Positions 32,639-41,152 of a DNA stretch of 64,000 bases are shown here, one piece after another. The notes under the pieces were generated by a model. It ran no database searches. It was not told the origin of the DNA and saw only the letters and a list, made by a program, of their open reading frames with translations. This DNA is from Saccharomonospora cyanea NA-134 (lineage in GTDB: Bacteria; Actinomycetota; Actinomycetes; Mycobacteriales; Pseudonocardiaceae), in the NCBI RefSeq assembly GCF_000244975.1, contig NZ_CM001440.1:1601538-1665537 (forward strand), in the 5' to 3' direction. A program made the translations under genes and the position numbers. The number at the start of each line of letters is the position of its first letter. Position 1 is the first letter of the stretch.

Positions 32639-32902
32639 ATGGCAGATGCCACCCAGAAGTACTCGATCACGATGCCGCGGGACATCGCGGAGGCTGCGCG
32701 TGCCCGCGGCGGTTCGTCCGGCCTGTCGTCCTATGTCACGGCCGCGGTGGCGCGGCAGCTCGAACGGGACAACCTGGCTGAGATCATCGCCGTCGCCGAG
32801 GCGGAGCACGGCCCGGTGAGTGACGAGGAGATCCGGGACAAGCGGGAAACGCTTCGGCAGGCGCAGGAGCGGGTGCACCGGGAAGGCCGGACCACGCAGT
32901 GA
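32639..32902 (+). CDS. CopG/ribbon-helix-helix antitoxin-like protein
   Basis: An 87-residue protein with an N-terminal ribbon-helix-helix (KYSITMPRDIAEAARARGG, then SSYVTAAVARQLERDN) and a charged tail that would wrap the toxin. It is the probable antitoxin of the PIN protein whose start it overlaps by four bases. Two TAGCATG copies (32626-32632, 32635-32641) straddle the starts ATG 32630 and ATG 32639 and may be its operator; the second ATG is chosen on protein grounds, with no ribosome site visible. Confidence 0.8.
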   Translation: MADATQKYSITMPRDIAEAARARGGSSGLSSYVTAAVARQLERDNLAEIIAVAEAEHGPVSDEEIRDKRETLRQAQERVHREGRTTQ

Positions 32903-33312
32903 GGCGGCAGGCGACACCCAACGGCACGCTCGTCCTGGACGGCGAAGGCCTCGCCAAGGTCGTCGCGCGTGACCGGGAGCTGACCGCGTGGCTCGGCGTG
33001 GCGCACGCCGACGACTTTCGAGTCGTCACCAGTGCGGCCACGCTCGTGGAGGTCATGCACCCTCGGACCAACCGGCAAGCCCTCGACTGGACCTTGTCGC
33101 GGCTCGTGGTCGAGCCGGTGACGGCCGAGATCGGAAGGCGGGCGGCGAGTCTTCTGGCGGAGGCGGGACTCCACGGGCACAAGTACGCCATCGACGCGAT
33201 GGTGGCCGCGACCGCGTTGGCCTCCCCAAGGCCGGTAACCGTGCTGACGTCGGACCCCGACGACTTTTCGGTCTTGGTCGAGAGTCGTCACGTGACCGTG
33301 GTGAAAGTCTGA
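32899..33312 (+). CDS. PIN domain ribonuclease toxin (VapC-like)
   Basis: A 137-residue PIN-domain protein. The acidic active-site residues appear in [11 protein letters not shown] (Asp), ATLVEVMHP (Glu), [11 protein letters not shown] (Asp) and [11 protein letters not shown] (Asp). Such toxins cleave tRNA or rRNA. GTG 32899 overlaps the antitoxin stop by four bases. The module is inserted between metX and dgt, so it is probably accessory. Confidence 0.85.
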
Positions 33313-33385
33313 CGTGAGGTTGTGGAGCGGGAGGTACCGGTCGGTGAGCCCGGAACCCGCCCGCTCGCCCGTAAGCTCCCTTGGC

Positions 33386-34657
33386 ATGGGCTACACCATG
33401 CACGACGTGCAGCGGCGGTTCACCGAGCGGCCGAAGTCCTCCACGTTGCCCGGCGCGCGAGATGACGGGCGGACGCCGTACGCGCGCGACCGCGCCAGGG
33501 TGCTGCACTCGGCCGCGCTGCGCAGGCTCGCCGGGAAGACGCAGGTCGTCGGTCCCGGTGAGGGTGCCGAGGTGAGCGGGGTGCCGCGGACCCGGCTGAC
33601 ACACTCCCTGGAAGTGGCCCAGATCAGTCGCGGGATCGCCGCCGACCTCGGTGCCGACCCCGATCTCTGCGACACCGCCGGGCTCGCCCACGACATCGGG
33701 CACCCACCGTTCGGGCACAACGGCGAGGCGGCACTCGACGAGGCCGCGCGGGCGTGCGGCGGCTTCGAGGGCAACGCGCAGACGCTGCGCATCCTCACGC
33801 GGCTGGAGCCCAAGGTGGTGGGCGATTCCGGCGAACCCTACGGACTCAACCTCACCCGCGCCTGCCTCGACGCCACGATGAAGTACCCGTGGCCGCGCCG
33901 GGACGGGCAGCGCAAGTTCGGCGTCTACGCCGACGACCTCGACGCGTTCACCTGGATCCGCAGCGAGGCGCCCGGCGAGGACACGTGCCTGGAAGCGCAG
34001 ATCATGGACTGGGCCGACGACGTGGCGTACTCGGTGCACGACGTCGAGGACGGCGTGCTGGCCGACCGCATCTCGCTGCCGGTGCTCGCGGACGCGCAGG
34101 AGCGCGCCGCGCTGGCGGGGCTCGCGGCGGAGCACTTCTGTGCCCTGTCCGTGTCCACGGTCGAGGGCGCGGCGCTCGGTCTGCTGGAGCTGCCCGCCGT
34201 GGCCGACTTAGTCCGTACCCCCTACGACGGCTCCCCGGCGGCGCAGGCGGCGCTCAAGCGCATGACGAGTGAACTCGTCGGCCGGTTCGTGTCGGCGGCG
34301 GTCACCGGCACCCGCGCCGTCCACGGGGAGGGACCGTTGTCCCGGTACGGCGCTCGGCTGGTGGTGCCCGACCAGGTGGCGGCCGAGGTGGCGTTGCTGA
34401 AGGCGCTAGCGCTGCGCTACGTGATGAGCGACCGGCGGCGGCTGGCCCTTCAGGAGGGGCAGCGGCAGTTGCTCGGCGAGCTGGTGGAGGTGCTGCCGCT
34501 GCGGGCGCCCGAGGTGCTCGACGCCGGTCTGCGCCCGGCGTGGGACGCGGCACCGGACGACGCCGCCCGCCTGCGCGTGGTGATCGACCAGATCGCCTCG
34601 CTCACCGACGCCCAGGCGAGGGCCTGGCATTCCTGGCATCTGGGGCGGCATGGTTGA
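33386..34657 (+). CDS. dgt: Deoxyguanosinetriphosphate triphosphohydrolase-like protein
   Basis: A 423-residue HD-domain dNTP triphosphohydrolase. It would cleave dNTPs (dGTP) to the nucleoside and triphosphate and so adjust pools. The HD motif is [16 protein letters not shown] near residues 110-125, with [14 protein letters not shown] before it, [16 protein letters not shown] and the C-terminal helical domain. ATG 33386 (MGYTMHDVQ) is close to a TAAGCT -10-like box at 33372, so a leaderless start is possible. In mycobacteria dnaG follows directly; here four genes lie between. Confidence 0.92.
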
Positions 34658-34679: not shown

Positions 34680-35798
34680 ATGCCCGCTTCCGATGTCGTC
34701 CGGACTCACCTGGGTTTCACACTGGCCGTGCACCGGGCTCTGGCCGCACCCGGCGGCAACGCGTGCTTCTCGCCCTATTCCGTGGCGAGCGCGCTCGCCC
34801 TGGTCGCCCGCGCGGCCAGAGGGGACACCGCCGCCGAGCCCGCAGGGCTCCTCGCGGGGTCGCTCGATCACGTCGCCGAGCTGACGGAGCTGCTGCACAA
34901 GGCTGCCGTGCTCGACGCCGCGCGCAGCGGTGAGGACACCCCCTCGCTCGCGGTGTCCAACACGCTGTGGGTGTGGCGGGAACTCGGGATCAGACAGGGT
35001 TTCACCGAGGCCCTGAGCGAATGGCCTTCCGGGGCGGTGCGGACGGCGCCGTTCGTGGACGACCCCGAGGGCGCCCGCACCGCGATCAACGCCGACGTCG
35101 CCCGCACGACCCGCGACCTCGTCCCCGAACTGCTGCCGGCAGGCACGGTCGGTGACGACACCGTGGCGGGGCTCGTCAACGCGCTGTACCTGCGCGTGGG
35201 ATGGACGTTCCCGTTCCGGGAGGCGGACACGGCCGACGGTGACTTCCACACGCCGTCGGGTGTCGTGAGAGTGCCGATGATGCGCCAGGCCGAACGCCTC
35301 GGCCACGCCGCCGTCGGCGGCTGGCAGCTCGTGGACCTGCCCGCGGTCGGTGGCGTCTCCGCGTCGGTGCTGTTGCCCGACCGCCCGTTGGAGGAGGCCG
35401 AACCCGGTCTCGACGCGGACACGCTGGCGGCGTTGCTGGCCGCGCGGCGCGAGACGATGGTGCGGCTGAGCCTGCCTCGCCTGTCCCTGGACCTCCGGTG
35501 TGCGTTGAAGGACACGCTCGAAGCGCTGGGCGTACGCAGGATGTTCCGGCCGGGCGCGGACTTCGGGGAACTGACCGACGATCCGCGGATGGTGGTGTCG
35601 GACATGCTGCACCAGTCGGTGTTGCGTGTCGACGAGACCGGGCTGGAGGGCGCGGCCGCCACCGCGGCGATGATGCGCCTGGTGTCGGCTCCCGCGGCGG
35701 AGCCCGTCACCGTGACGGTGGACCGGCCGTTTTTGTTCCTCGTGCGGCACCGGGCCAGTGGCGTGGTCTACTTCCTGGCCAGGGTCGTCCAGCCGTGA
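34680..35798 (+). CDS. Serpin family protease inhibitor
   Basis: A 372-residue protein of the serpin fold: ACFSPYSVASALALVARAAR (helix B/hinge region, given as FSPYSVASAL), NALYLRVGWTFPF, LSLPRLSLDLRCALKDTLEALGVRRMF (seen as SLPRLSLD), and the C-terminal VDRPFLFLVRHRASGVVYF. The reactive-centre hinge reads VDETGLEGAAATAAMM, with Ala-rich P12-P6 residues typical of inhibitory serpins. A fixed count from the P17 Glu puts P1-P1' at Val-Ser, but the loop is about four residues longer than in antitrypsin, so P1 is not certain. P14 is Leu instead of Thr/Ser. No signal peptide, so it may act inside the cell. The stop overlaps the next gene. Confidence 0.9.
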   Translation: MPASDVVRTHLGFTLAVHRALAAPGGNACFSPYSVASALALVARAARGDTAAEPAGLLAGSLDHVAELTELLHKAAVLDAARSGEDTPSLAVSNTLWVWRELGIRQGFTEALSEWPSGAVRTAPFVDDPEGARTAINADVARTTRDLVPELLPAGTVGDDTVAGLVNALYLRVGWTFPFREADTADGDFHTPSGVVRVPMMRQAERLGHAAVGGWQLVDLPAVGGVSASVLLPDRPLEEAEPGLDADTLAALLAARRETMVRLSLPRLSLDLRCALKDTLEALGVRRMFRPGADFGELTDDPRMVVSDMLHQSVLRVDETGLEGAAATAAMMRLVSAPAAEPVTVTVDRPFLFLVRHRASGVVYFLARVVQP

Positions 35799-37627
35799 GC
35801 GCACCGACCCGGGAGCCCGTCCGCGCGGAGACGCCGGAGCCGGCCCGGCCGCGTGGGCGGGTTCCGTGGCCGCTGCTGGCGGACGCGGCGGTCATGACGT
35901 TCTTCGTGCTGGCCGCCTTCCTGCTCTACCGTCCACTGTGGGAGAACCTGTCGGGCGGTTACCTGCAGCACAGCGGGCAGGACCAGAACATGTGGGAGTG
36001 GTTCTTCGCGGTCACCGCCCACTCCGTGCTGAACTTCGAGAACCCGCTTTTCTCCACCCTGCAGAACCACCCCCTCGGCGTGAACCTCATGGCCAACACG
36101 GCCATGTTCGGGGTCGGTGTCCCGCTGACGCCGGTCACGGTGTTGTTCGGACCCACGGTGACGTGGGCTATCGCGCTCACCGGGGGACTCGCCGGCACAG
36201 CCGTCGCGTGGTACTGGGTGCTGTCGCGCCACCTGGTGAGCACGCGCGCGGGCTCGGCCGTGGGTGCGGCGTTCGCCGCGTTCGCGCCCCCGATCATCTC
36301 CCACGCCAACGCGCACCCGAACTTCGTCGCGTTGTTCGTGCTGCCGTTCATCGTGCTGTGGTTGCTCAAGCTCGCCCGGGGCGAGCGGGTGGTCCGGAAC
36401 GGGGTGATCCTCGGGCTGCTGGTGACCTACCAGATCCTGCTGGGTGAGGAGTCCCTGCTCATCGCGGCCACGACACTGGCCGTGTTCGCGCTCGCCTACA
36501 CGGTGATGCGGCCCGAGCAGGCGTTGTCGATGGTGCGACCGCTGGGCAAGGGCGTCGCCGTGGGCGCGGCGGTGTCGCTGGTCCTGGTGGCGGTGCCGCT
36601 GTGGTGGCAGTTCTTCGGCCCGCAGAGCTATCCGGGTATCGAACACGGGATGCGGGGCAACGACGTCGCCGCCTTCACCGCGTTCGCCACCGAGTCCGTG
36701 GCGGGCACCGACGACAGCGCGGTGGGACTGTCGATGAACCGCACCGAGGAGAACGCGTTCTTCGGCTGGCCGCTGGTGGTGTTGCTGCTGGGGCTCGTGG
36801 TGGCGCTGTGGCGTGACGTGGTCTCGCGTGCGCTCGCGGTGACGATGCTCGTCATGGCGTGGCTGTCGATGGGCGCGCTGTTGATCGTGGACGGCGAGGG
36901 CACGTCGATTCCGGGTCCGTGGATGCTGCTGTTCGACGTGCCGCTGTTCGACTCCGTGCTGGAGTCGCGCTTCGCGCTCGGCTGCGTTCCCGTCATCGGA
37001 ATACTGTTGGCCAGGGCTACCGAGAAGGTGCTGCGCCTGCGGGTGCGGCCGGACTGGCGTTACACGGCGGGCATCGTGTGGTTCAGCGCGCTCGTCCTCG
37101 CGTTGCTGCCCATCGCGCCCACGGAGCTGAAGGTCGCCGAGCGCGGCGAGACACCGGCGTTCTTCACGAGCGGCGAGTGGCGCCGGTACGTGGACGACGG
37201 GTCCGTCGTCGTGGCACCGCTGCCGAACCCCGGCGACGCCGACGCCCTGCACTGGCAGGTGGAGTCCGGGTTGGAGTTCCCGCTGGCAGGCGGGTACTTC
37301 GTCGGCCCCGACGGTGAGGGCAACGGCCGGTACGGGCCGGAGTACCGGCCCACCACGTACCTGCTCGCCGAGGTGCACACGAGCGGGGAGGTACCCGAGA
37401 TCACCGTCGACCACCGGGACGATGCCGTGGCCGACCTGCGGTACTGGCGGGCGGACGTCGTCGTGCTGCCGATCGGCGACTCGCCGCACCAGGTGCAGTT
37501 GCGGGAGACCATCGAGGCTCTGCTCGGACAGCCGGGCGAGGTGCACCGGGATGTGTGGGTGTGGGACGTGCGGAGGTTGACCGCCGACGCTGTCACACCG
37601 GAGGAGGCTGTCTCGTCCCCAGGGTGA
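35795..37627 (+). CDS. Polytopic membrane protein, GT-C glycosyltransferase-like
   Basis: A 610-residue protein with about ten transmembrane helices and a soluble C-terminal domain of about 170 residues (TELKVAERGETPAFF to the end). An early extracytoplasmic loop with the acidic Gln-Asp (QHSGQDQNMWEWFF) resembles the metal/substrate loop of GT-C glycosyltransferases that use polyprenyl-phosphate sugars. I cannot name the substrate. It begins at GTG 35795 with a four-base overlap to the serpin gene. The final 37 bases contain an ECF41-type promoter for the gene that follows. Confidence 0.72.
   Translation: MSAPTREPVRAETPEPARPRGRVPWPLLADAAVMTFFVLAAFLLYRPLWENLSGGYLQHSGQDQNMWEWFFAVTAHSVLNFENPLFSTLQNHPLGVNLMANTAMFGVGVPLTPVTVLFGPTVTWAIALTGGLAGTAVAWYWVLSRHLVSTRAGSAVGAAFAAFAPPIISHANAHPNFVALFVLPFIVLWLLKLARGERVVRNGVILGLLVTYQILLGEESLLIAATTLAVFALAYTVMRPEQALSMVRPLGKGVAVGAAVSLVLVAVPLWWQFFGPQSYPGIEHGMRGNDVAAFTAFATESVAGTDDSAVGLSMNRTEENAFFGWPLVVLLLGLVVALWRDVVSRALAVTMLVMAWLSMGALLIVDGEGTSIPGPWMLLFDVPLFDSVLESRFALGCVPVIGILLARATEKVLRLRVRPDWRYTAGIVWFSALVLALLPIAPTELKVAERGETPAFFTSGEWRRYVDDGSVVVAPLPNPGDADALHWQVESGLEFPLAGGYFVGPDGEGNGRYGPEYRPTTYLLAEVHTSGEVPEITVDHRDDAVADLRYWRADVVVLPIGDSPHQVQLRETIEALLGQPGEVHRDVWVWDVRRLTADAVTPEEAVSSPG
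37591..37617 (+). promoter_or_regulatory. ECF41-type promoter
   Basis: TGTCACA (37591-37597), exactly 16 bases, CGTC (37614-37617). This is the bipartite ECF41 promoter consensus reported for this sigma group. It lies 39 bases before the carboxymuconolactone-decarboxylase gene and inside the 3' end of the membrane protein gene. The ECF41 sigma gene is immediately beyond, on the opposite strand. Confidence 0.85.
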
Positions 37628-37655
37628 AGGATTCCCGACGAGGAGGAGACAGACC

Positions 37656-38255
37656 ATGCCCCGCATCCCCGGTGTGCCCACGGCCAGGGCTTCCCGGCTC
37701 CTGCGACTGGTGTACCGGTTCACGCGACGCCGCTACGGCGCTGTGCCCGAGCCGATCACCGTCGTCGCGCACCACCCCCGGCTGCTCCTGGCATCCGGGG
37801 TGCACGAGCTGCTCGTCGAGCGGGCCGCCCGCGTGCTGCCCCGCAACGTCGCCGAGCTGGCCGTGTACCGCACGGCGGTGCGCCTGAACTGCTCGTGGTG
37901 CATCGACTTCGGAACGATGCTGCAGAAGCACGCGGGACTCGACATCGACCGGTTGAAGCACATCGACGACTACGCCGACTCACCGCTGTTCACCCGGCAG
38001 GAGCGGCTCGCGCTGGCCTACGCCGACGCGATGACCGACACGCCGGTGGGCGTCACCGACGAGCAGGTGACGGAGCTGGAGGGCGAGTTCGGTCGTGACG
38101 GGCTGGTCGAGCTGACCTACCTCGTGGCCCTGGAGAACTCCCGAGGCCGGATGAACAGCGCGCTGGGTATCACCGACCAGGGGTTCACCTCGGGCGACGC
38201 GTGCCGGGTGCCCGTGCCCTCGGACCGGCAGACCGTCACCGAGGTATCCGCGTGA
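37656..38255 (+). CDS. Carboxymuconolactone decarboxylase/AhpD family protein (ECF41-linked)
   Basis: A 199-residue CMD-family protein with the AhpD-like redox motif NCSWCIDFGT (CxxC) near residue 85 and the helices RQERLALAYADAMT, LVELTYLVALENSRGRMNSAL (split here as LVELTYLVA and ENSRGRMNSAL). Most such proteins near ECF41 sigma factors are of unknown substrate; a disulfide- or peroxide-linked role is plausible from the CxxC. The ATG follows an AGGAGG. Its promoter matches ECF41 and it ends tail to tail with the sigma gene, overlapping it by 20 bases. Confidence 0.88.
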   Translation: MPRIPGVPTARASRLLRLVYRFTRRRYGAVPEPITVVAHHPRLLLASGVHELLVERAARVLPRNVAELAVYRTAVRLNCSWCIDFGTMLQKHAGLDIDRLKHIDDYADSPLFTRQERLALAYADAMTDTPVGVTDEQVTELEGEFGRDGLVELTYLVALENSRGRMNSALGITDQGFTSGDACRVPVPSDRQTVTEVSA

Positions 38256-39180
38256 GCTTGTCGGGGTTGGCGATGTCGTAGATTGCGACGATCCGGCCGT
38301 CACGCACGGCCATCGTGTGCACGCGCTCGTGGAGGTCGCGGTAGCGGCCTTCGCCGGGTTCGGCCGCGAGGTGGAAGCCGAGATCGCCGTTGACCAGTAC
38401 CGGCCGGGCGGCCATGAGCGCCCCCGGCCGGTAGGTGGCGACCAGACCGACGGCGAAGCGGGCGATCTTGTCGACGCCGACGAGGACGCGGAGTGCCGTC
38501 CGCGCCTTGCCGTCGGAGTCGCCGACGAAGCGGGCGTCGGGGTGCAGGACTTCGGCGACCGCCCGCACGTCGCCGGAACTCACCGCGGCCAGGAACCGCT
38601 CGACCACCAGCCGCTGGTGTTCCAGGCTCTCCCTCGGCGGTGGCTCGGCGTCGGCCACGGCCCTGCGGCCCCGCGACGCGTGCTGCCGTGCCGCGGCGAC
38701 GGAGCAGTCCAGGATGTCGGCGATCTCGTCGAACGGCACGTCGAAGGCGTCGTGCAGTACGAACGCCACCCGCTGCTGCGGGGTGAGCGTGTCCAGCACC
38801 ACCATGGCCGCCATGCGCACGGCGTCGTCACGCACCACGACGTCGAGCGGGTCGTCCGGGCGCGCCGTGCCCAGCGGCGTCACGATCGGTTCCGGCAGCC
38901 ACTGGCCGACGTAGCGTTCGCGACGTGCCGCCGCGGAGCGCAGGCGGTCCAGGCACACGCGCCCGACCACCGTCGTGCACCAGGCGCGCAGGTCGCGGAC
39001 CGCCTCGCGGCGGGCGTCCGGGAGACCCGCCCAGCGCAGCCACGTCTCCTGCACGGCGTCCTCGGCGTCGGCCAGCGACCCGGTGAGCCGGTAGCCCACC
39101 GCGAGCAGGTGGGCGCGGAGGGAGGAGAACGCATGAGAGCTGTCGGAGTCGCCGGAGCTGTCGGGGCGTTCGGTCTCCAT
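38236..39180 (-). CDS. ECF sigma factor of group ECF41 with fused SnoaL-like domain
   Basis: A 314-residue sigma-70 family protein: region 2 (LRAHLLAVGYRLTGSLADAEDAVQETWLR, shown as YRLTGSLADAEDAVQE), region 4 (LTPQQRVAFVLHDAFDVPF, then IADILDCSVAAARQHASRGR) and a fused SnoaL_2-like domain. ECF41 hallmarks are present: the linker WLPEP (in YVGQWLPEPI), a DSDGK segment in place of the common DGGGK, and the closing NPDKL. Instead of an anti-sigma factor the fused domain controls activity. It converges with, and very likely drives, the CMD gene through the promoter at 37591; no such site precedes its own gene. Confidence 0.93.
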   Translation of the reverse strand: METERPDSSGDSDSSHAFSSLRAHLLAVGYRLTGSLADAEDAVQETWLRWAGLPDARREAVRDLRAWCTTVVGRVCLDRLRSAAARRERYVGQWLPEPIVTPLGTARPDDPLDVVVRDDAVRMAAMVVLDTLTPQQRVAFVLHDAFDVPFDEIADILDCSVAAARQHASRGRRAVADAEPPPRESLEHQRLVVERFLAAVSSGDVRAVAEVLHPDARFVGDSDGKARTALRVLVGVDKIARFAVGLVATYRPGALMAARPVLVNGDLGFHLAAEPGEGRYRDLHERVHTMAVRDGRIVAIYDIANPDKLTRIPR

Positions 39181-39238
39181 CGCCCGAGTATGGGCCAGGG
39201 GAGAATCCCGGTCACAGCCGGTGTTCTACAGTGGGGCG

Positions 39239-41152
39239 GTGGCGGGACGGATCCGGGAGAGCGACATCGCACAGGTGCGTGACCGCAATCGGATCGACGA
39301 GGTCGTCGGCGAGTACGTGGCCCTGCGCAGGGCCGGCGGCGGTGCGCTGAAGGGCCTGTGCCCCTTCCACGAGGAGAAGACGCCGTCGTTCAACGTGCGT
39401 CCCACGCACGGCACCTTCCACTGCTTCGGCTGCGGTGAGGGCGGCGACGTCATCAAGTTCGTCATGCGGATCGAACACCTCGGGTTCGTCGAGGCCGTCG
39501 AACGGCTCGCCGACCGCATCGGACTGCGACTCACCTACGAGGGCGGCGGGACCTCCGTCCGCCGCGACCGAGGGACGCGGCTGCGCCTGGTGGAGGCACA
39601 CAAGGCCGCCCAGGCGTTCTACGCCGAGCAGCTCGCCACCCCGGAGGCGGAGGCGGCCAGGAAGTTCCTCTCCGAGCGGGGCTTCGACCAGGCGGCGTGG
39701 ACGAAGTTCGGCTGCGGGTTCGCGCCCGGCGGCTGGGACCGGCTGACGAAACACCTGATCCGCAGCGGCTTCGAGCTGAACGAGCTCTACAAGGCACAGT
39801 TGTCGAAGGAGGGCAGGCGCGGTCCCATCGACCGGTTCCACCGCAGGCTCGTGTGGCCGATCAAGGACCGCGGCGGAGACGTCGTCGGGTTCGGCGCGCG
39901 GCGGTTGTTCGACGACGACCCGATCCAGGCCAAGTACCTCAACACGAGCGAGAGCCCGATCTACAAGAAGTCGCAGGTGCTGTTCGGGCTCGACCAGGCC
40001 AAGCGCGAGATCGCGCGGCGGCACCAGGTGGTGGTCGTCGAGGGGTACACCGACGTGATGGCCATGCACGAGGCCGGGGTGCCGACGGCGGTGGCGTCGT
40101 CGGGCACGGCGTTCGGCGAGGAGCACATGCGGGTGCTCCGGCAGATCATGATGGACGACGACACCTTCCGCGGTGAGGTGATCTTCACCTTCGACGGTGA
40201 CTCGGCGGGGCAGAAGGCCGCCCTCAAGGCGTTCGAGGGTGATCAGACGTTCGCCGGTCAGACCTACATCGCCGTGGCGCCCGACGGGATGGACCCGTGC
40301 GAGCTGCGGCTGGCCAAGGGCGACGCCGCCGTGCGCGACCTCGTGGCCCGCCGCACCCCGCTGTTCGAGTTCGCGATCCGCAGCCTGCTCTCCGAGTACG
40401 ACCTCGACTCGGTGGACGGCCAGGTGGCGGCCCTGCAACGCACCGTGCCGCTGGTGGCGCAGATCAAGGACCGCGCCAAACGCGACGGCTACGCCACCAA
40501 ACTCGCGTGGTGGGTCGGCTGGCAGGACGAGGCCATGGTGGTGCGGCGCGTGCGCGAGACCGCCGGCGCGCCCGTGAAGGCGAACGGTGCCCGGCGCGCA
40601 CCAGTGCGCAGCGGCGGCGGTGCGAACGGCGCCGACGGGGGGCGACGTCCGGCGCAACTGGAGCGCCCCGACCCGCGGAACCCGGACCTGGAGGCACAGC
40701 GGGAGGCGTTGAAGGCCGCCCTGCAGGAGCCCGCGCTCGCCGGGCCCGAGTACGACGCGCTGCCGGAGGACGCGTTCGTGCACCCCGCCTACGTGGGGGT
40801 GCATCGCGCGATCGTGAAGGCGGGCGGCACGAGCAGCGGTCTCACCGGTCCCGCGCTGATCGAGGCGGCCGCCGCGCACGCGGACGACCGCACGGTCGCG
40901 TCGCTGCTCTCGGAGTTGGCGGTGGAACCACTGAGGTCCCAGAGCGACGCCGACGTCCGCTACGTGTCGAGCGTGCTCGCCGCCGTGCAGGAGAGCCTCG
41001 TCGGCAGGCAGATCGGAGAACTCAAGTCGCGGTTGCAGCGACTGTCTCCGGTGGACGCGGCAGAGGAGTACCGCGCGCTCTTCGGTGACCTCGTGGCACT
41101 GGAGCAGTACCGTATTGCGTTGCGGGAACAGGCGGCGAACCGATGGGATTGA
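39239..41152 (+). CDS. dnaG: DNA primase DnaG
   Basis: A 637-residue primase. The CHC2 zinc finger uses Cys41-His44-Cys62-Cys65 (LCPFHEEKT...HCFGC). The TOPRIM core has VVVVEGYTDVMAMH and FTFDGDSAGQKA acidic clusters, and a C-terminal DnaB-binding helical domain follows a Gly/Ala-rich linker. It lays RNA primers at the replication fork. GTG 39239 (VAGRIRESDIAQ) matches family N termini; the TACAGT at 39227 would be a -10 box for a leaderless mRNA. It diverges from the ECF41 gene. Confidence 0.96.
   Translation: MAGRIRESDIAQVRDRNRIDEVVGEYVALRRAGGGALKGLCPFHEEKTPSFNVRPTHGTFHCFGCGEGGDVIKFVMRIEHLGFVEAVERLADRIGLRLTYEGGGTSVRRDRGTRLRLVEAHKAAQAFYAEQLATPEAEAARKFLSERGFDQAAWTKFGCGFAPGGWDRLTKHLIRSGFELNELYKAQLSKEGRRGPIDRFHRRLVWPIKDRGGDVVGFGARRLFDDDPIQAKYLNTSESPIYKKSQVLFGLDQAKREIARRHQVVVVEGYTDVMAMHEAGVPTAVASSGTAFGEEHMRVLRQIMMDDDTFRGEVIFTFDGDSAGQKAALKAFEGDQTFAGQTYIAVAPDGMDPCELRLAKGDAAVRDLVARRTPLFEFAIRSLLSEYDLDSVDGQVAALQRTVPLVAQIKDRAKRDGYATKLAWWVGWQDEAMVVRRVRETAGAPVKANGARRAPVRSGGGANGADGGRRPAQLERPDPRNPDLEAQREALKAALQEPALAGPEYDALPEDAFVHPAYVGVHRAIVKAGGTSSGLTGPALIEAAAAHADDRTVASLLSELAVEPLRSQSDADVRYVSSVLAAVQESLVGRQIGELKSRLQRLSPVDAAEEYRALFGDLVALEQYRIALREQAANRWD

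Follow-up and report, generated by a model that had tools for sequence, protein, structure and literature searches.

A convergent ECF41 sigma factor pair in Saccharomonospora cyanea with a conserved promoter before its predicted carboxymuconolactone decarboxylase-like target

ECF41 sigma factors have been described together with a promoter motif and with targets that are carboxymuconolactone decarboxylases (CMDs), oxidoreductases or epimerases (COE). The accessible text of Wecke et al. 2012 gives the motif and the COE targets, reports no reproducible phenotype, and lists a convergent gene arrangement in 9 of 373 cases (2%), 4 of them with a COE promoter (PMC3426412). It also notes that B. subtilis lacks an ECF41 sigma factor. 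Promoters of the same class have been mapped for the ECF41 systems of B. licheniformis and R. sphaeroides (PMC3426412) and of S. meliloti (PMC6180224). Here we describe a CMD-like gene and an ECF41 sigma gene that converge within 64,000 nucleotides of Saccharomonospora cyanea NA-134 (contig NZ_CM001440.1, positions 1,601,538 to 1,665,537); we call this whole stretch the window, and its genome is a single contig of 5,408,301 bases. Since both the motif with its COE targets and the convergent arrangement are already published, the locus belongs to a known kind: in the terms of that source's accessible text, it is a convergent ECF41 pair (PMC3426412).

We consider it very probable that the locus is an ECF41 module in convergent layout, in which the sigma factor drives the promoter of the CMD gene. 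The features concerned are as follows.

37591..37597, plus strand: -35 element TGTCACA of the CMD promoter, exact match
37612-37613, plus strand: the bases preceding the -10 element, CT, both pyrimidines
37614..37617, plus strand: -10 element CGTC, exact; invariant in 54 non-redundant promoters, which were chosen for at least 9 of 11 matching bases
37626, plus strand: predicted transcription start, a G, the ninth base past CGTC and the middle base of the preceding gene's TGA
37640..37648, plus strand: ribosome-binding site GAGGAGGAG of the CMD gene, as read from the sequence
37656..38255, plus strand: CMD-like gene, 199 amino acids, with a CSWC motif; predicted target
38236..38255: tail-to-tail overlap of the CMD and sigma coding sequences, 20 bases
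38236..39180, minus strand: ECF41 (SigJ-type) sigma gene, encoding sigma2-WLPEP-sigma4 and a SnoaL-like domain
39187..39192, minus strand: CATACT, candidate -10 element of the sigma gene, 6 nucleotides before its ATG

The sigma factor and the promoter of its predicted target

The sigma protein has only sigma2 and sigma4 regions, of SigJ type (Pfam r2 and r4_2, both above cut-off), followed by a C-terminal SnoaL_2 match that also exceeds its cut-off (30.0 bits against 27); an extension of about 100 residues at this end, carrying three conserved motifs, is characteristic of ECF41 sigma factors. It passes the NCBIfam model of the SigJ subfamily (366 bits, cut-off 271), and residues 17-313 align with SigJ of PDB 5xe7, a relative whose full-length structure is solved (E 5e-87). 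Pfam, NCBIfam and PDB matches thus agree with the original prediction of an ECF41 sigma factor with a fused SnoaL-like domain, and the three motifs named there, WLPEP, DSDGK and NPDKL, are all present. WLPEP occurs in 64 of 66 full orthologues, NPDKL, NPEKL or NPDKF likewise in 64, and D-x-x-G-K/R in 62. DSDGK, which had been read as standing for DGGGK, is an ordinary variant: 10 of the 66 orthologues have DSDGK, 24 have DGGGK, and SigJ 5xe7 has DSNGK. The spellings DGGGK and NPDKL are those of the prediction; neither was found in the accessible text of PMC3426412. No anti-sigma family was recognized among the six proteins scanned (sigma factor, CMD-like protein, membrane protein, serpin, and the products of dgt and dnaG).

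The predicted promoter, TGTCACA-N16-CGTC, is present exactly at 37591-37617, 38 nucleotides ahead of the CMD gene, and it is the sole match to TGTCACA-N15-17-CGTC in the window. The motif by itself is not rare. Shuffled windows contain 0.28 matches on average, with at least one match in 26 of 100 shuffles. The whole genome has 11 matches against 6 for the reversed pattern, which is no clear enrichment, and scaling the shuffle rate of the window to the genome gives an arithmetic estimate of about 24 expected matches against the 11 observed. Judged from these sequences, it is the placement of the motif, not its raw number, that exceeds chance.

That placement is conserved. A search with the CMD protein alone yielded 77 named loci, and the best site within 150 bp before the CMD start matches all 11 promoter bases in 37 of them, 10 in 35, 9 in 4 and 8 in 1 (median over all 77, 10 of 11). 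Sites scoring 10 mostly read TGTCACG, and 75 of the 76 sites with a score of at least 9 have a 16-base spacer. By comparison, in-gene stretches of the same length never reach 10 and reach 9 in 2 of 77 cases; on the opposite strand of the upstream stretches the best site scores 10 once and 9 in 22 of 77. The promoter is thus conserved with the target, with at least 10 of 11 bases in 72 of 77 loci, and the cognate-promoter reading, with an ECF41 sigma factor and a CMD target, is well supported.

Could the motif be a chance match within coding sequence? It does lie inside the 3ʹ end of the preceding open frame, as originally predicted, with the stop codon TGA at 37625-37627; the corresponding frame of three close relatives likewise stops at a TGA 8-10 bases past CGTC, and the raw genome counts are not above those of shuffled sequence. 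Nonetheless, a chance origin has next to no probability. Of the 75 relatives whose N16 site matches at least 9 of 11 bases, 59 have an upstream serpin or membrane-protein gene that stops short of the -35 element, so coding cannot explain the site there, and the median score of 10 of 11 over the 77 relatives also argues against chance. By the same count, a promoter inside the preceding gene is not a general rule; it holds for the window and the three close relatives.

Where does the CMD transcript start? When 65 non-redundant promoters are profiled, conserved pyrimidines immediately before the -10 element and a conserved GTGA at +7 to +10 stand out besides both boxes. In the window and the three close relatives the TGA of this GTGA doubles as the stop codon of the preceding gene. 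It is unlikely to be a mere stop codon: among the 59 relatives in which the upstream gene ends before the -35 element, GTGA is exact in 32, matches at 3 of 4 bases in 11 and is absent in 16. Furthermore, at least 9 of 39 extended-pattern sites from 60 family genomes have a possible start codon exactly 8 nucleotides after CGTC, at +9. The last base printed for the S. meliloti RpoE9 target promoter in Table 1 of PMC6180224 is a G, nine bases past CGTC; entries in that table seem to end at the mapped start, and the accessible text does not preserve the bold type. Together, the conserved GTGA, the leaderless relatives and the end of the Sinorhizobium promoter suggest that the CMD transcript starts at 37626, with a 30-base leader.

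Two promoter sets and the targets of related sigma factors

Which sigma factor reads this promoter? The genome encodes at least three ECF41-type sigma factors with WLPEP, including those at 3324846-3325778 and 4068122-4068994, and the first of these two, which we call the second ECF41, is itself preceded by TGTCACA-N16-CGTC. With one common promoter code, the CMD promoter could be of ECF41 type and read mainly by either paralogue. We think this improbable. In the genus, the CMD gene occurs only alongside the sigma factor of the window type: of 12 genomes, 9 have a CMD orthologue, and all 9 have a sigma orthologue as well (two of them in pieces at contig ends or gaps). One genome (G010) has neither.

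A second argument against a common code comes from the promoters of the second ECF41. Its gene is divergent from a CMD gene of its own, which carries TGTCACA-N16-CATC, and the second sigma factor is found in at least 88 of 150 family genomes, with the best 15 candidates per genome scored. Second-type promoters were read in its 30 best-scoring loci; there, 10 or more bases are matched by 29 forward and 26 reverse N16 sites. Once near-identical spacers had been dropped, 54 of 79 window-type and 32 of 55 second-set promoters were compared, all preselected for a spacer of 16 and a minimum of 9 or 10 matching bases out of 11. All 54 window-type promoters have a pyrimidine as their last spacer base, and all 32 of the second set have a purine there. 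Two pyrimidines precede the -10 element in 49 of the 54 window-type promoters and in none of the 32 others (Fisher p 1e-18, uncorrected for relatedness), and GG or GA precedes it in none of the 54 against all 32, a difference that applies to the two systems compared. Leave-one-out assignment places 54 of 54 and 32 of 32 promoters correctly. Descent is not the whole reason, because separate promoter lineages share the second type: that of the second sigma gene itself, that of its divergent CMD gene, and those of DoxX genes before second-type sigma genes.

The window type is not a private code of the window's sigma factor, a possibility that we rejected: it is also found at other ECF41 genes and in the RpoE9 promoter of Sinorhizobium. 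Its pattern has 39 matches in 60 family genomes against 1 for the reversed control. These sites precede 14 orthologous CMD genes, 1 probable CMD gene with a broken frame, 1 other CMD gene, 9 epimerase-like genes, 4 FAD-oxidoreductase-like genes, 5 ECF41 genes and 3 small membrane-protein genes, and 2 are probably chance matches; apart from CMD and ECF41 sigma, these labels were assigned by eye, as were the gene labels of L149, L152 and L153. The same feature, two pyrimidines ahead of the -10 element, is seen in the three published ECF41 promoters (PMC3426412, PMC6180224). Because the window type is widespread and occurs in these three published promoters, the GG type looks derived.

The original prediction had taken a single exact site in the genome as the sign of a single-target regulon. 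Taken literally, this fails, since the genome has four exact TGTCACA-N16-CGTC sites: the CMD promoter of the window, the site before the second ECF41 gene, a site 33 nucleotides before a DoxX_2 gene at 4490037, and a site (L001) with two pyrimidines before the -10 element and no gene start behind it. The relaxed pattern TGTCACR-N16-CGTC has 11 genome sites against 2 for the reversed pattern, and among these 11 the window's site alone combines two pyrimidines with a downstream gene start. None of the seven non-exact sites has two pyrimidines. Five of the seven end in a pyrimidine, so a single-base rule alone would not exclude them. All seven lie in long open frames, which are frequent in GC-rich DNA; one (L291) has an internal start 25 nucleotides behind it and another (L295) lies 101 nucleotides before a regulator-like start. 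Of the seven exact sites with N15 or N17 spacers, L002 and L009 show the two pyrimidines; no start follows L002, and the start 45 nucleotides behind L009 is internal to a longer frame. The window's site is the only one in the genome to match the stricter pattern TGTCACR-N11-YGYCT-CGTC. Because, among the 11 TGTCACR-N16-CGTC sites, it alone has both two pyrimidines and a gene start, a single target for the window's sigma factor in this genome is plausible.

Related species may have added or exchanged targets. The best site matches 10 or 11 of 11 bases at 12 of 35 DoxX_2 loci and 9 bases at another 11, against a single 9-base match among the 35 in-gene controls. Fifteen DoxX promoters could be typed, of which ten lean towards GG and five towards the window type (G003, G004, G005, L230 and L223). 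Typing left out the remaining 20, which had no site or one that was weaker or differently spaced; one of them (L215) has a window-like site with a spacer of 17, in a genome with a second sigma factor. DoxX of this genome leans towards GG, the weakest of the ten (log2 odds -5.6). It is less likely to be a target of the window's sigma factor, given this leaning and given that its relatives L218, L222 and L224 precede a sigma gene of the other type. In those three loci DoxX_2 stands directly before a second-type ECF41 sigma gene, with TGTCACR-N16-TGTC in front; DoxX_2 is outside the published COE list.

In three Saccharomonospora genomes (G003, G004 and G005) DoxX carries the window type, GCTGTCT-CGTC. 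We found no second-type sigma factor in these three, of which G003 and G004 are only 82-83% complete; the third match in G005 is nearest to a more distant paralogue. Two other genomes of the genus, G006 and G008, have lost the CMD gene and have window-type sites 34 and 37 nucleotides before unlinked FAD-oxidoreductase-like genes; both also hold a second ECF41. These few cases, with counter-examples, suggest that DoxX and FAD oxidoreductases may be among the targets added or exchanged. We tentatively propose, at somewhat less than even chances, that paralogous ECF41 sigma factors of one cell are insulated from one another by the last spacer bases, two pyrimidines in one system and GG in the other, and that genes switch master by changing them. 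We rate this proposal below an even chance because the DoxX promoters of L230 and L223 lean towards the window type in genomes with a second sigma factor (G024 and G084). If it is true, ECF41 regulons would be small and exchangeable, and DoxX-like proteins would be a partner class besides the published CMDs, oxidoreductases and epimerases. A full-text search that left most subscription journals outside its coverage found no publication linking ECF41 with DoxX, which is weak evidence of novelty, and no ECF41 title announcing promoter types was found in a literature search of similarly limited coverage.

Several observations weigh against the reading that the window's sigma factor drives the CMD promoter and that promoter type tells the sigma factors apart. 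Five of the 77 loci reach just 8 or 9 of 11 bases. The relatives share descent and most promoters within each set are orthologous, so the counts overstate independence. G006 and G008 keep the sigma orthologue with no CMD gene, and therefore the sigma factor must serve another purpose there. The window type is also present at the own promoters of five ECF41 genes of other kinds (5 of 39, in a set selected for type), and the DoxX promoters of L230 and L223 point the same way. The CMD-like protein misses the Pfam CMD gathering score (20.2 against 23 bits). Finally, one locus (L078) has an exact motif about 580 bases upstream of the sigma start.

Convergent layout, neighbours and the CMD-like protein

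As predicted, the CMD (37656-38255, plus strand) and sigma (38236-39180, minus strand) open reading frames converge with a 20-base overlap. A sigma gene is found in 71 of the 77 CMD loci and is convergent in 71 of 71, including six in which the fetched stretch has no dgt, serpin or dnaG; in three of the six loci with no sigma match, the contig runs out shortly behind the CMD gene. S. saliphila (L021) and S. iraqiensis paurometabolica (L023) do not count as natural losses of the sigma gene, since runs of N break both loci. The former species holds the closest named relative of the CMD protein, at 82% identity. One record named Rhodococcus rhodnii (L086) has nearly the same layout and identities as a Kibdelosporangium locus (L082) and is possibly mislabelled or contaminated.

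It had been suggested that the overlap adds antisense control. In a broader form, convergent transcription would itself be the control, with CMD transcripts damping the sigma gene through antisense RNA or polymerase collision, as negative feedback. The tail-to-tail arrangement in all 71 loci with a sigma match would fit, as would the finding of no terminator-like site between 37400 and 39400, in a scan of little power (0.3 expected by chance). However, among 66 full pairs the genes overlap in only 27; 10 pairs lie within 30 bases of each other, 16 at 31-200 bases and 13 beyond 200, some of these more than 1 kb apart. Antisense control by the overlap is thus rejected as a conserved feature, a single inherited layout suffices to explain the orientation, and we consider control by convergent transcription quite improbable. 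Because the orientation is universal in 71 loci and the overlap is present in 27 of 66, the sequences indicate that the convergent layout is old and the overlap incidental.

The sigma gene does not seem to be its own target. No ECF41 motif of at least 10 of 11 bases occurs within 180 bases upstream of the sigma gene in any of the 66 full loci, which argues against autoregulation. CATACT stands 6 nucleotides before the sigma start codon in all seven sequences compared (the window, L157, L159, L158, L151, L150 and L022). This suggests a leaderless promoter of the housekeeping type for the sigma gene; a generic sigma-70 scan found no promoter at the CATACT site. Between 39187 and 39241 a -10-like hexamer lies 6 nucleotides before the start codon of either gene, CATACT for sigma and TACAGT for dnaG. 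This back-to-back arrangement suggests two divergent leaderless transcripts. The genes around the pair are as follows.

33314..34657, plus strand: dgt (dGTPase), flanking
34680..35798, plus strand: serpin gene (251 bits)
35498..37627, plus strand: preceding open frame (frame extent), a membrane protein by eye, whose 3ʹ end contains the CMD promoter
39221..41152, plus strand: dnaG, flanking, divergent from the sigma gene

The plus strand thus carries dgt, the serpin gene, the membrane-protein frame and the CMD-like gene, in this order, and the minus strand carries the sigma gene, back to back with dnaG, whose likelier start is GTG at 39239. The pair had been described as wedged between dgt and dnaG; this holds on the dnaG side, and on the dgt side the serpin gene and the membrane-protein frame intervene. 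Within about 4 kb of the CMD relatives we see dgt in 53, the serpin gene in 59 and dnaG in 63 of the 77 loci. The serpin gene accompanies the block, being present in 49 of the 50 loci that show dgt, sigma and dnaG; serpins are rare in bacteria. A small frame ahead of dgt (32899-33312) resembles a PIN-domain protein by eye.

What might the CMD-like protein do? Its PDB relatives begin at E 1.3e-8, and it has a CxxC redox motif, CSWC (in CSWCIDFG). E-x11-C-x-x-C is found in 66 of 77 sequences, comprising the window and 76 relatives (L091 was excluded as too short); 11 are unmatched. Four residues past the second Cys the window has Gly, as do 65 of the 66 matched sequences, the remaining one having Ser. 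The best PDB relatives have His at this position, among them Atu0492. A His four residues after the second Cys is the proton relay of AhpD. We do not call the protein an AhpD peroxidase, because Gly replaces this His, and its chemistry may differ from that of AhpD-type relatives.

A model of the module and its relation to described systems

How would such a module work? We propose that a short leaderless promoter, lying in the 40-60 bases that the sigma gene shares with dnaG, drives this gene, with no feedback of the sigma factor on its own expression. The sigma factor would carry its own control domain, the SnoaL-like C-terminus, with no anti-sigma factor involved. A signal that alters this domain would allow the holoenzyme to start at about 37626 from TGTCACA-N16-CGTC, and transcription from there would yield the CMD-like CxxC protein. 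The bases before the -10 element would help to separate the window's sigma factor from the second ECF41, which would read promoters with GG there. In sigma2, positions 67, 69-72, 76, 83 and 87 are among the many at which the two sigma subfamilies differ, and they offer a tentative lead to the residues involved. Two ECF41 systems with distinct promoter sets in one genome offer a two-base handle on how similar sigma factors are kept apart. Furthermore, the convergent layout gives the CMD and sigma genes separate promoters, so induction of the target could be measured with no feedback on the sigma gene.

We know of no CMD partner at sigJ. The SigJ protein of Mycobacterium tuberculosis (PDB 5xe7) has the same domain order as the window's sigma factor, over residues 17-313. 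Ecf41Bli-ydfG of Bacillus licheniformis and RSP_0606-ecf41Rsp of Rhodobacter sphaeroides resemble the window in their WLPEP linker, C-terminal extension and lack of an anti-sigma factor; in both, by the accessible text, a CMD gene is the sole detected target, and the -35 element TGTCACA and the 16-base spacing are those of the window (PMC3426412). The window differs in being convergent: co-transcription of the COE gene with the sigma gene, the commonest COE-linked layout in the published text, is impossible there (PMC3426412). RpoE9-SMb20029 of Sinorhizobium meliloti likewise has a CMD gene as its sole target in the accessible text, and its promoter, TGTCACACCGGCGGCCGCTGTCTCGTC, differs from that of the window at 3 of 27 bases, with GCTGTCTCGTC common to both (PMC6180224). 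In that alphaproteobacterium the CMD gene lies upstream of the sigma gene and is probably co-transcribed with it, whereas in the window the two genes converge (PMC6180224).

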